This document shows positions 18 through 4,504 of a stretch of DNA of 64,000 nucleotides, in pieces. The stretch lies in assembly GCA_903851195.1 (NCBI GenBank), contig CAINNJ010000046.1:1-64000 (forward strand), read 5' to 3'. A model generated the notes under the pieces. The model was given only the letters and a program-made list of their open reading frames with translations. It searched no databases and was not told the DNA's origin. The translations under genes and the position numbers were made by a program. This stretch comes from an uncultured Acidobacteriia bacterium (lineage in GTDB: Bacteria > Acidobacteriota > Terriglobia > Bryobacterales > Bryobacteraceae). Each line of letters opens with the position of its first letter. Position 1 is the stretch's first letter.

Positions 18-203
18 TCAGGTGCCGCCGATGCTTCTTTGCTGCTTGCTTCTGGACCACGCTCCCACTTCATCAGAACTGCACCCACGAAGAAAGATGC
101 CGTTGCTCTGACGCTTACCATCGTGGGGCCAAAATTCGGAGCTTTCCGCATTCTCATTTGAGAAGTCCAATTCAATGAACGCTTCAGTGCTTAGTTCGTC
201 CAT
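18..203 (-). CDS. uncertain small ORF downstream of TerY-P kinase
   Basis: A 61-codon frame lies beyond the kinase stop on the same strand. The product is acidic at the N-terminus and basic towards the end, with no motif I recognise and no convincing ribosome binding site. The first 308 bases otherwise hold only overlapping shadow frames. It could be a small last gene of the TerY-P operon, a remnant, or chance. I see nothing that decides between these. Confidence 0.2.
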   Translation of the reverse strand: MDELSTEAFIELDFSNENAESSEFWPHDGKRQSNGIFLRGCSSDEVGAWSRSKQQRSIGGT

Positions 204-308
204 TCGAAAGTCACCATGTCCTTTTGCTGAACTATGAAAATAATCGGGAATTGTGCAAGCTTATTTTTCGGCAATTCCACTCGGGCCACCAAGTACCTGC
301 TAGCTAAG

Positions 309-2282
309 CTAAAATCGCCCCAGAGCGCCATAGTTCGCTTTGGCTTGAGAAAGCGCGTTCGTGCAAAAATCGACATGCGAAATCGCACTGAAGCGTTCCG
401 TCTGCCAGGATTGGAGAACTCGCGCGAGCAAGGTCGGACCGTGCAAAAGTGCTTGGATCAGTTCAGTTTTTCTCTGTTCGATCTCGCGCTCGATCACCGA
501 AACATCGGCAGGATCAGGTGGCTCGTTCGGATTGAAAACGAAGCTCTGTTCCACCTGTTTCCGCCAGACAAGGAGGTTCGCCTTCAGCATCGGGCCAATT
601 CCTTTTATCGCGAGCGAAGGATGGACGTCATTGGCGTCTACGATTCCCCAGGCAATAAGAAGGGACTTTCTCCCCGATCCGATCCCCGTGATGGTCGCGT
701 CGGCGATCCGGTGCCGTTCGAGATGCCGGGCCAGTTGCCTGTTTCGTAGATCACTACTGAGCTTACGCATCCGCGCAGCTTTCAATACCGGAAGATTGTC
801 CAGTTCGTTCCGCTGCGTCTGTAGCAGCCTCTTAGCTTCCGCGAATGCCGGGGGCGGGTTCTGAAGAGCCTGCCACCGCGCGAACGCCACCTCATACGCC
901 AGGACAGCGTTCTCGTATGTCTTCGTAATCGGCTCCGCAATCTTTCGGCCCGATTGCCATAGCCTTGTTGCCCCAACCAATGCGGCGATCAGTATACCGA
1001 TGGACAGGAATTCTGGAAGCGTCCCGGGAGCAACTATTGCGACTGCCACGAGGATAACCCCTGCAGCCAGCATCCTCATTTTTCGGCGTTGCGAAGCCAG
1101 TTTTGGCACGGCAGGATCCGGGACATACTGTACGGCGTACGCACTTCCCAACTGTGGGGTCATGCTCGTATCAGGCTTAATAGCTTCGATTTTCGCCCAG
1201 ATGGCCACCAGGTCGAACTGTGCGCCGCGGATGACGGTCACGGTCGCGGCAAAGATCGGGATACCCGAGGCTTTCTCCGCAGTGCACCATGGACAGGCAC
1301 CAAGCTCATGACAAAAATGATGAGCGGCGTTCGTGGCGCAGCGCTTCAGGCTTCGCGAGAGACCTTCCAGCGCCCGCGTCCATTCATGCCCGGTTGGGCG
1401 TTTCCCGTTCACACCTTCGCTGCCGAAGGCTCGCGTGAAGAGCGCTCCGACGTCAGCCGGAAATGACCCAAGTTTTGGAACCCATGCAGGCTGATCCATC
1501 TCCGTAAGCGAGGAATCGGGTAGATAGGCGAATCGAAGCTCCCGAATCGCGTCCTCGATCGTTTTGTCGCCCTTACCCTGCCGGAAGATCCCCGAAAAAG
1601 GATGCCGTCCAAGGAACAGCATATGGAAGAGCAAGACCGCAAGGCCAAACGCATCGTGCTGGACGGTACGCCGGACGCCCGCGAAACTCTTGCCCTGCAG
1701 TTCGGGCGGCGTAAAGGTCGGAACGCCCACTAGACACGGAAAGAACAATCTGCCATCCGAAATCTCGAAGCTGTCGCAATCGATCAATTTGACCGTCGCA
1801 TCTTTCGAAATCATCAGATTTGCGTGGTTGACGTCGCCGATTACCTGTCCGGCATCATGCACCGTTGCGAAGGCGCGAGCAACATTGACAGCGGCATGAA
1901 GAATGAAGGGAAACTGGGCGTCCGGAAAGTGTGCGCGGCGGCTCTTGGGTGTGTAGAGAAGATGAGCCTCCTCGTAGCCCACGATTTTGGGCATTACAAA
2001 GCCCTGCGCGGTCGCGCCGGGCGAGGGCCGAAGAAGATCCGTCGGCCAGGCTGCGATGCGCAATAGACCGTCTGATTTTAGTCGGCACATCGCCTCGAGT
2101 TTCTTTGATTTTTCCTCGGTTAGCCCCTGATGGTAGAACTTCGCGACCAGATCCGGGGAGCCGGTGCCTCCGATGGACCACACGGAACCTTCGCCTCCTC
2201 TTCCAATTTCCCGATCCAGAGTTAGGCTCCGTTTGTCGGAGGTCCAGACAGCAAGACCGGGAGTCGGCGTGAAGTTGCTCAT
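309..2282 (-). CDS. TerY-P triad protein kinase with zinc-finger, membrane and helix-hairpin-helix regions
   Basis: Serine/threonine-kinase-like protein of the TerY-phosphorylation triad. The N-terminal third is the kinase fold: glycine loop IGRGGEGSVW, VAK lysine strand, catalytic loop IGDVNHANL (HRD replaced by GD, the usual look of this subfamily), and DCDSF in place of DFG. Around residues 330-340 a CHELGACPWC cluster suggests a small zinc finger. Two hydrophobic stretches near residues 410-445 could be a membrane hairpin. The C-terminal region carries helix-hairpin-helix-like motifs (ITGIGSGRK and IKGIGPMLK), which in this family suggest nucleic-acid contact. The start overlaps the phosphatase stop by ATGA, so the genes are translationally coupled. 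Kinase, PP2C and VWA genes in this order are the known TerY-P module, reported in an antiphage survey. Confidence 0.85.
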   Translation of the reverse strand: MSNFTPTPGLAVWTSDKRSLTLDREIGRGGEGSVWSIGGTGSPDLVAKFYHQGLTEEKSKKLEAMCRLKSDGLLRIAAWPTDLLRPSPGATAQGFVMPKIVGYEEAHLLYTPKSRRAHFPDAQFPFILHAAVNVARAFATVHDAGQVIGDVNHANLMISKDATVKLIDCDSFEISDGRLFFPCLVGVPTFTPPELQGKSFAGVRRTVQHDAFGLAVLLFHMLFLGRHPFSGIFRQGKGDKTIEDAIRELRFAYLPDSSLTEMDQPAWVPKLGSFPADVGALFTRAFGSEGVNGKRPTGHEWTRALEGLSRSLKRCATNAAHHFCHELGACPWCTAEKASGIPIFAATVTVIRGAQFDLVAIWAKIEAIKPDTSMTPQLGSAYAVQYVPDPAVPKLASQRRKMRMLAAGVILVAVAIVAPGTLPEFLSIGILIAALVGATRLWQSGRKIAEPITKTYENAVLAYEVAFARWQALQNPPPAFAEAKRLLQTQRNELDNLPVLKAARMRKLSSDLRNRQLARHLERHRIADATITGIGSGRKSLLIAWGIVDANDVHPSLAIKGIGPMLKANLLVWRKQVEQSFVFNPNEPPDPADVSVIEREIEQRKTELIQALLHGPTLLARVLQSWQTERFSAISHVDFCTNALSQAKANYGALGRF

Positions 2283-3043
2283 TGGTGCGCGCGAGACGCG
2301 AGGATCAACGTTTTGTCGTCATCTGTGCGCTTGTTCACGCGCTCAGAGACGAGAAATCCCTCGATTTGCTTTCCTAGTTCCGGTGAGTTGCCTTCAGCGA
2401 GATGAAGCATATGCGGAAACAGTCCGCCGAAGAATGCGGTATGTGCCTCGCGTGCAGCGAAATCGAGAGCAAGTCGCTCAATTCCGTCGCTCAGTATCGC
2501 CACTTCTTCGATCTGCGCCTTCCTGATGCTTACCTGTGTTTCCTCCTGCGCCCGAACATCGGTGATGAAGAATGTGACGTTTGCGTAGTCGCCCTTCTCC
2601 GGCCAGTAGACGCATCTGTATTGATCCGATCCAGCCTCCCGCACGCAAATTGCGCCATCTCCGACCTGCCAGAACGAGACACGCTCATCCGAGACAATTG
2701 CGACCAGCATCGTGCAGGCAAAGTCCCGGATCGTCAGACCTTGGCTGTCCGCCTCCTCGAAGAGTACCCCGCGCAACTTTTCAACCGTGTCACGCGCAAA
2801 CGACTCAGTAAAGAGCCTTGCGGGATCGCACGCCTCGGCTGCGCGGACGATGAAGTCACATGTTAGGCGAGATCCGATCTGTGCGTGAGAGGCCGATCCG
2901 GCGCCATCAGACACGACGCCCAGGAACGCCGAGGCATGATCCAGAAACTTGACCGCGTGCGAGTCCTGGCAAACCCCCTCAGCAGATTTCTGATGCGACG
3001 TGCCGATGACCGAAGCGGCCGCGAACTTCCAGCCGCCCGGCAT
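2279..3043 (-). CDS. PP2C-family protein phosphatase of the TerY-P triad
   Basis: Metal-dependent serine/threonine phosphatase expected to oppose the neighbouring kinase. Visible PP2C motifs are VVSDGAGSA near residue 43 (first metal-binding aspartate), LSDGIERLA in the middle and TDDDKTLIL near the C-terminus (last metal aspartate). At 254 residues it is a bare catalytic domain with no signal peptide or membrane segment. It overlaps the VWA stop as TGATG and the kinase start as ATGA, so all three are one tightly coupled transcription unit. Confidence 0.85.
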   Translation of the reverse strand: MPGGWKFAAASVIGTSHQKSAEGVCQDSHAVKFLDHASAFLGVVSDGAGSASHAQIGSRLTCDFIVRAAEACDPARLFTESFARDTVEKLRGVLFEEADSQGLTIRDFACTMLVAIVSDERVSFWQVGDGAICVREAGSDQYRCVYWPEKGDYANVTFFITDVRAQEETQVSIRKAQIEEVAILSDGIERLALDFAAREAHTAFFGGLFPHMLHLAEGNSPELGKQIEGFLVSERVNKRTDDDKTLILASRAHQ

Positions 3044-3735
3044 CAGACAGAAGCCCAGCCTTGCGGGGTAACAGGGTTTTGCAACTCAATCTTGTCCCCG
3101 AGGGAGGACCTTGAGACGGAGCCGAGCGAGTTCGAGAGCCAAATAAAGAGATCGCGAAAGCGCAATTCCTTTAGTTTTAGTGGTTCCCGAGCAGAAATCT
3201 GGCTAAGAATATCCATGCGCGCGCCTTCGACACCGACCGCAAAGAAGGAGAAGTGATTGGCAGCTTCGCCTGCTCTGACCTTGGCGGCCGCTTCTTGCCA
3301 TAAGTCAGTGGGACCACCATCGGTGATGAGGAACACCCAAGGTCGATAGAAGGATACCCCGTTCGCGCGGTATGCCTGCTTGCGCTGATCGAGAAGGGAA
3401 AGTCCCGTTTCGATTGCCGCTCCCATCGGAGTGTCGCCGGTAGTCTGCAGCGTCGGGACTTGAAAGACGTCTGCAGTCTGAAAATCGGTGATGGTTTTCA
3501 CCGGCCCAAAACCGATTATCGCGATCTCGACCCGCTTCGACGCCATCGCATCGGCGCTCAGCTCATCTCGAAAGACCCGGATTCCCTCGTTCAGCGAATC
3601 AATGGCCTTGCTGCGCATCGACACCGATGTGTCCAGCAACAACACGCACGGACAACGCGGTTCTGGATTATCAACGAACTCCACGCCCGCGCCAAAGCCA
3701 ACTTGATCGTTGAAAGGAACTTGCTCGTAAGGCAT
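3043..3735 (-). CDS. terY: TerY-like von Willebrand factor A domain protein
   Basis: Single VWA domain, the TerY component of the triad. The metal-ion-dependent adhesion site is complete: DTSVSM near residue 30, the GDTPMG threonine, and the LITDGGPTD loop. The ORF track begins this frame at 3879, but residues before MPYEQVPF look unrelated to the fold and lie inside the DUF4236 gene, so I start at the ATG at 3733-3735. That gives 230 residues, a usual TerY length, and leaves a 19-base gap to the DUF4236 stop. VWA proteins typically act as metal-dependent interaction scaffolds. A role in presenting targets to the kinase/phosphatase pair is inference. Confidence 0.85.
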   Translation of the reverse strand: MPYEQVPFNDQVGFGAGVEFVDNPEPRCPCVLLLDTSVSMRSKAIDSLNEGIRVFRDELSADAMASKRVEIAIIGFGPVKTITDFQTADVFQVPTLQTTGDTPMGAAIETGLSLLDQRKQAYRANGVSFYRPWVFLITDGGPTDLWQEAAAKVRAGEAANHFSFFAVGVEGARMDILSQISAREPLKLKELRFRDLFIWLSNSLGSVSRSSLGDKIELQNPVTPQGWASV

Positions 3736-3754
3736 AAGTTTATCTGTAAATATG

Positions 3755-4102
3755 TTAAAAAATCGCACGGACCAGAGCGTAGAGCAGAAGCCCGCTTCCG
3801 CAATAAAGTACCCACTGCGACCAGATTGCCCGCGGTTGCCGAACACCGGTTTGCGGCGCTCCTTGTAGAGGCGAAACACGACCTTGCTGCTGAGAATGGG
3901 GCGATGCCGAACCTTTCACATTGCCGTAATAGTCTCGTCGATAAATTCCGGTTTGCGGAATCGAGACATGAGTGTACTTACGCCCCTTCGCGTCACGACC
4001 GATGCGGGCACCGCGGATACCAGCGGAGTACCCAATGCCCGACCTGGAAAAATTCACCCGAAATGGACCAAGGGCTATGCTTCGGCGAAAATTCCATCCC
4101 AC
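3755..4102 (-). CDS. DUF4236-domain protein with C-terminal membrane segment
   Basis: The first 55 residues match my memory of DUF4236: GWNFRRSIALGPFRVN, then a glycine-rich SRSGIGYSAGIRGARIG stretch and a YTHVSIPQTGIYRR end. A basic, Gln-rich linker follows, then a hydrophobic C-terminal segment (WVLYCGSGLLLYALV) that could anchor the protein. No function is established for this family. It is 19 bases upstream of the TerY start on the same strand and probably heads the operon, which makes it a candidate fourth component of the TerY-P locus. Confidence 0.7.
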   Translation of the reverse strand: MGWNFRRSIALGPFRVNFSRSGIGYSAGIRGARIGRDAKGRKYTHVSIPQTGIYRRDYYGNVKGSASPHSQQQGRVSPLQGAPQTGVRQPRAIWSQWVLYCGSGLLLYALVRAIF

Positions 4103-4144: not shown

Positions 4145-4504
4145 TTATACAGCATCAGGCAGATCAGCGTAGGAAACCGAAAACCTGTCCGGACCCAACT
4201 CGTTGCACGTTGTCTGATCTGAGGGCAACAGATTTCTTAGGATGGGGGCCGGGAGAATCCGCAGCATGTCGACCCGCCACTTTGCGGGCTCGTCGAGCTC
4301 CGCCTTCAGCTCCATCCAGGTCACGCAATCTTCCCGGTCGCCGTTGAGCGTACTCAGACGGGAATCGAGCTCCGCCCGCTGCGCCACCGTCAAGGGAAGC
4401 TCGCCATTGTCAAGGCTATCCCAAAGTTGCGCGATCAGCGCAATGCGCTCTGGCGATGACAAGGGGGCAATTTCATCGTCCGTGAACTGCGCTTCCATGG
4501 CCAT
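4145..4504 (-). CDS. putative addiction-module antitoxin with non-canonical C-terminal extension
   Basis: Residues 12-70 match the short addiction-module component family (LSSPERIALIAQLWDSL, then an ELDSRL helix and a TWMELKAEL end). Members are usually 65-80 residues and end just after that Trp-containing motif. Here the frame continues for about 50 further residues of unrelated sequence, suggesting loss of the native stop. An AGGAG box lies a few bases upstream of two in-frame ATGs (4504 and 4498). No RelE/ParE toxin follows: the next gene downstream is DUF4236. It is therefore an orphan or decaying antitoxin beside the TerY-P operon. Confidence 0.55.
   Translation of the reverse strand: MAMEAQFTDDEIAPLSSPERIALIAQLWDSLDNGELPLTVAQRAELDSRLSTLNGDREDCVTWMELKAELDEPAKWRVDMLRILPAPILRNLLPSDQTTCNELGPDRFSVSYADLPDAV

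Follow-up and report, generated by a model that had tools for sequence, protein, structure and literature searches.

A DUF4236 membrane protein recurs beside YegL-PphC-YegI triads and is probably a fourth component of an acidobacterial gene block

Does the trio of kinase, phosphatase and VWA genes found in an uncultured Acidobacteriia bacterium belong to an antiphage system, and is the DUF4236 gene at its head a fourth component? The four genes lie in the 64,000-nucleotide stretch of DNA that we analysed (hereafter the window), which runs from base 1 of its contig within a 7.7-Mb genome. Their arrangement is as follows:

309-2282, minus strand: kinase gene, 657 aa (Pkinase, E = 1.4e-8)
2279-3043, minus strand: PP2C gene, 254 aa (PF13672, E = 7.7e-43)
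3043-3735, minus strand: VWA gene, 230 aa (PF00092, E = 2.8e-8)
3736-3754, minus strand: DUF4236-VWA junction, a 19-bp gap
3755-4102, minus strand: DUF4236 gene, 115 aa (PF14020, E = 4.2e-20)

Gene calls and Pfam matches agree with the original prediction on the positions of the four genes, on the 19-bp gap and on the overlaps of one base between the VWA and PP2C genes and of four bases between the PP2C and kinase genes. For the VWA gene, we preferred the ATG at 3735 over the GTG at 3879, which gives the longest ORF, because the ATG fits the homologues and yields the gap originally described; the sequence ahead of this start shows no obvious strong ribosome-binding site. Since the window begins at contig base 1, the view downstream of the kinase is limited to 308 bp. 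The DUF4236-VWA junction is too short to hold a separate intrinsic terminator and has no predicted promoter, with promoter and terminator scans returning numbers at chance level. The short gap, the lack of a predicted promoter within it and a shared GC3 (see below) are only indirect pointers to co-transcription or interaction of DUF4236 with the triad.

Judged by sequence, the three proteins are homologous over their full length to YegL, PphC and YegI of Escherichia coli, and the triad belongs to TerY-P only in the broad sense. Phmmer comparisons with the E. coli proteins gave E-values of 3e-76 for YegL, 1.6e-34 for PphC and 6e-100 for YegI, and the gene order VWA-PP2C-kinase is identical. The module is complete, as originally proposed, with all three genes present and contiguous, and 79 of the 80 closest YegL loci in the genome collection carry the complete set in the same order. 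Alignment of the VWA protein, which is of the YegL/TerY type, shows the MIDAS residues (DTSVS, GDTP, TDGGPTD), and the PphC-type phosphatase has its metal-ligand motifs (SDGAGS, GDGAI, SDGIE, DDDKT). A TerY-like VWA protein, a PP2C phosphatase and a kinase with a C-terminal zinc-type cluster, as found here, are the elements of the broad TerY-P definition of Anantharaman et al. 2012, as summarised in PMC11090510. In our sample, homologues of YegI, PphC and YegL range from Paenibacillus to methanogenic archaea. Three PHROGs families of unknown function (phrog_37888, phrog_37072 and phrog_28389) gave near full-length matches to all three triad proteins; therefore, some phage or prophage record bears relatives of YegL, PphC and YegI.

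The literature describes E. coli YegI as an autophosphorylating Ser/Thr kinase bound to the membrane, and PphC as the phosphatase that acts on it (PMC13232886, citing Rajagopalan and colleagues 2018 and 2020); work cited in the same article came upon no inducing condition for yegI and pphC. By analogy with this work, the window proteins would have the same kinase and phosphatase activities. In the window kinase, the catalytic residues K48, D150, N152 and D168 are invariant in 31 aligned relatives, as is the zinc-type cluster C315/H321/C330/C333 (CxnHxnCxxC). A hydrophobic membrane hairpin is predicted at residues 400-439 and matches one in YegI. The HHH_5 profile matches the helical tail of the kinase in four of the 31 relatives, with E-values down to 1.8e-5, and has no match in the window kinase itself. 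The AlphaFold model of the kinase (mean pLDDT 89.8) contains only helices beyond residue 340, with no beta barrel. A search of PDB sequences with the kinase profile returned nothing at 1e-8, and a PDB fold search with the model found only generic kinases among the matches listed. A zinc finger, a membrane hairpin and helix-hairpin-helix motifs had been noted as additions to this kinase. All three are present, the last by way of the relatives, but they are not additions: because they recur across relatives or in YegI, we regard them as standard in the family. Drawn from the domains only, a link between membrane state, phospho-signalling and nucleic acid may be imagined for this set.

We compared the occurrence of DUF4236 beside the triad with its background frequency. 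Among the 80 closest YegL loci, eight have a DUF4236 gene (L057, L058, L064, L067, L079, L080, L127 and L128), whereas 0.01-0.02 loci would be expected from how densely the domain occurs across 396 genomes of Acidobacteriota and 349 of Pseudomonadota, with mean genome sizes rounded to 5.0 and 4.3 Mb. Roughly seven of the eight are independent, since L079 and L080 are both from Mesorhizobium. Every one of the eight copies lies less than 2 kb from the triad, and the other 71% of the flank contains no copy (binomial P = 4.6e-5). Sampling blind to DUF4236 (396 Acidobacteriota, 349 Pseudomonadota, 240 genomes of the window's class and 205 Alphaproteobacteria) gave 28 loci, excluding the window and two centre genomes; for three of these, the flank covered was about 1.5 kb only, and one (G930) begins near a contig edge. 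Two of the 28 have DUF4236 on the same strand upstream of the VWA gene, at 9 bp (G281) and 15 bp (G738). The 80-locus and 28-locus tests overlap at one locus, because G281 is L058, from Terriglobus albidus. In one of the samples, DUF4236 was found at none of ten alphaproteobacterial YegL loci, three of which had only about 1.5 kb of flank.

An all-against-all clustering of ORFs less than 4 kb from 85 triads, with no family preselected, also pointed to DUF4236, which had the widest spread across unrelated lineages (nine loci). The sole bigger cluster, a regulator, was restricted to the Competibacter lineage, where it occurs at 12 related loci. The gap between DUF4236 and the VWA gene is 19 bp in the window, 18 bp in L057, 9 bp in L058 and 15 bp in L154, the locus of G738. 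Outside this set, DUF4236 is convergent in L067, divergent in L128 and 0.7-2 kb away in L064, L079, L080 and L127. No DUF4236 gene is found near about 90% of YegL loci, and it is therefore not essential to the triad. Because its relatives adjoin the triad in unrelated bacteria far above chance, DUF4236 is probably a real fourth component of the trio, and its proposed membership of the operon is likewise probable. Adjacency no more frequent than chance, originally named as a refutation of the proposal, is not what these counts show. Our literature searches found DUF4236 in an unrelated context only and no text naming it with TerY or YegL, although Anantharaman 2012 and Rajagopalan 2018/2020 might mention such a link; the triad is already known, while the DUF4236 partner, whose recurrence is solid, appears to be unreported in the searchable literature.

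Other neighbours were seen during this survey. A second family occurs less than 4 kb from the triad across unrelated lineages (L061, L127, L132, L135 and L154) and consists of membrane or secreted proteins, some of them resembling the LprI type (DUF1311) by eye. Downstream of the L154 triad (138-3193), three same-strand genes look VWA-like, MotA-like and OmpA/MotB-like by eye and had no PADLOC match.

How this arrangement came about can be read in part from the kinase tree of 84 rows. The presence of DUF4236 requires six changes on this tree, five of them forced by well-supported branches, so the link recurs in at least five places of the tree. The three acidobacterial loci (window, L057 and L058) form one supported clade, in which the window kinase shares 48% identity with its L057 counterpart and 42% with that of L058. 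All three blocks start at DUF4236 and differ in the gene upstream of it, which is antitoxin-like in the window, a transposase in L057 and a response regulator in L058. The antitoxin-like gene was considered as a part of the module and rejected, given the other genes at this position in L057 and L058. It is a 119-aa ORF (4145-4504, minus strand) located 42 bp upstream of DUF4236, with an Unstab_antitox/TIGR02574 domain beyond which it extends well; no toxin partner was seen beside it, and it is possibly an orphan or relic antitoxin.

GC3 in the four genes is 0.51-0.66, compared with 0.76-0.84 in eleven neighbouring genes (4751-25160), and this common low value suggests that the four arrived jointly. 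The step itself is sharp, as if a transfer boundary lay near 4.1-4.7 kb. No match to the VWA protein turned up in five other genomes of the window's genus. The persistently short gaps, changing upstream genes, low GC3 and absence from these five genomes fit acquisition as one unit.

Neither sequence nor fold searches of the PDB found a significant solved relative of the DUF4236 protein. The assignment to the family itself is clear, with a full match to the 55 positions of PF14020 at 72.4 bits (Pfam cut-off 27). AlphaFold predicts six beta strands (residues 7-59, in a domain of about 1-60), a disordered linker and a membrane helix at 93-114, with a pLDDT of about 90 over residues 1-60, 94-96 over the helix and below 50 at 69-81 and 83-88. 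This helix, together with a hydrophobic stretch at 97-115, supports the C-terminal membrane segment that had been read from the translation. Divergence from the L057 and L058 genes is 0.64-0.68 at third, 0.40-0.48 at first and 0.29-0.40 at second codon positions, a ranking that fits the expectation under coding constraint.

Three architectures were found among the DUF4236 proteins at triads. In the first, the domain is followed by one membrane helix (window, L057, L058, and L154 with a short tail beyond the helix). The second adds membrane segments and an SH3_3 domain, recognised by Pfam in L079 and L128 and by sequence resemblance in L080. In the third, one or more membrane segments come with a stretch of about 200 aa or longer that matches no recognised domain (L064, L067 and L127). 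All three have just the DUF4236 domain and a membrane segment in common, and these are therefore the likely basis of the link with the triad. No fusion of DUF4236 to any triad gene was seen. Elsewhere, DUF4236 occurs in a phage tail region, beside Fic and beside a His-Xaa-Ser system, as well as on plasmids; because of these unrelated phage and plasmid contexts, we regard it as a general domain that is reused at the triad. The lists of plasmid records for DUF4236 and for the VWA protein had none in common among the 40 of 51 VWA records listed.

The reading that we prefer, and to which we give about half of our belief, is a horizontally acquired four-gene operon in which DUF4236 is an accessory subunit, anchored in the membrane, that docks or tunes a kinase/phosphatase switch. 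The YegI-type membrane Ser/Thr kinase and the PP2C phosphatase would form this switch, with the metal-binding VWA protein as a putative adaptor. DUF4236 would position its cytoplasmic beta domain on the inner membrane next to the kinase, and might dock or tune the switch in response to the state of the envelope or membrane; relatives bear a predicted periplasmic SH3b domain at the same position. This proposal builds on gene identity and order, the recurrence of DUF4236, foreign composition and predicted membrane segments, all computed here, from which we infer co-transcription, physical contact, membrane topology, signal and output of the four-gene set. A recurring membrane partner would be a concrete candidate for a sensor or docking subunit of YegI-PphC-YegL, and it gives a functional context to an uncharacterised domain whose model has no match among solved folds.

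More tentatively, DUF4236 proteins may form a recurrent family of membrane-anchored receptors or adaptors of YegI-type switches, recruited independently in several lineages, with interchangeable parts (a membrane helix alone, a periplasmic SH3b domain or a larger unknown part) that set the input sensed. If true, this would offer the first clue to the signal that the orphan YegI-PphC-YegL pathway responds to.

The genomic evidence for an accessory subunit applies equally to DUF4236 as an effector or substrate, in which case the switch would control phosphorylation of its Ser/Thr linker, or its membrane activity. The linker is predicted to be disordered and has Ser-Pro sites in the window protein, and C-terminal parts that vary (SH3_3 or a large unknown part) would be in keeping with interchangeable effectors. 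Conversely, the three acidobacterial proteins do not conserve the Ser/Thr positions of the linker, and DUF4236 has no recognised toxic or catalytic domain, so that we find this role unlikely.

DUF4236 might instead be a hitch-hiker, adjacent to the triad through shared mobility because both gather in accessory islands. Its occurrence beside unrelated genes on plasmids and phages agrees with this, as do the transposase upstream in L057, the antitoxin-like gene in the window and the position and orientation of DUF4236, which differ between lineages. Shared mobility does not, however, readily account for eight copies that all lie close to the triad with none in the rest of the flank, nor for same-strand junctions of 9-19 bp kept between loci whose kinases are just 42-49% identical, nor for a spread across unrelated lineages that exceeds that of every other neighbour. 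We consider adjacency of this kind quite improbable as the explanation.

In another reading, the whole module could be a TerY-P-type antiphage system with DUF4236 as an optional membrane component. Its three enzyme classes are those of antiphage TerY-P (PMC11090510, PMC7699616, PMC10889362), the PADLOC candidate families PDC-S06 and PDC-S31 flank two Pseudomonadota DUF4236 triads (L154 and L127, respectively), and in the window genome the module is patchy and foreign in its composition. However, PMC11090510 distinguishes TerY-P kinases with a zinc ribbon from the OB-fold kinase of the antiphage form, and the window kinase is essentially helical in the C-terminal region, with no OB-fold in its model beyond residue 340. 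At E ≤ 0.01, no PADLOC model matched the window VWA and PP2C proteins, although the library includes a TerY model (PDLC02224); E. coli YegL and PphC had no match either, and the window and E. coli kinases matched only generic kinase-type models. The neighbourhood at 4.7-25 kb is metabolic-looking by inspection. The description of the locus as a type reported to be antiphage thus falls away: because the triad is of a different subtype, YegI-PphC-YegL, and the TerY model misses both the window VWA protein and YegL, that report does not transfer to the window. Antiphage activity should not be assumed for this module, for which we think it a poor prospect, and the case cautions against calling every VWA/PP2C/kinase trio antiphage. 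Carriage of the triad by phages was rejected as an explanation on the sparse VWA matches: unannotated fecal phage contigs had only two, both partial, and viral contigs three.

Compared with known systems, the window DUF4236 resembles other PF14020 proteins, in which the PF14020 domain is N-terminal and frequently precedes a membrane segment and a C-terminal part that varies, but in the two phylum samples most genomes with DUF4236 lack any YegL homologue. The antiphage TerY-P of Gao et al. 2020, as described in PMC11090510 and PMC7699616, shares the three enzyme classes and differs in its OB-fold kinase and in the PADLOC TerY match, both lacking in the window. Broad TerY-P shares the VWA, PP2C and Ser/Thr kinase proteins and the Cys/His zinc-type cluster after the kinase domain, whereas the window has DUF4236 at its head, a kinase with a membrane hairpin and a helical, HhH-type tail, and no recognised restriction or DNA-processing neighbours in the available sequence. 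The E. coli YegI-PphC(YegK)-YegL locus is without DUF4236, and in MG1655 an inserted yegJ separates pphC from yegI, whereas the three triad genes of the window are contiguous. It nevertheless shares with the window the order of the genes, full-length homology of all three proteins and a kinase with the same membrane hairpin and C-terminal region.
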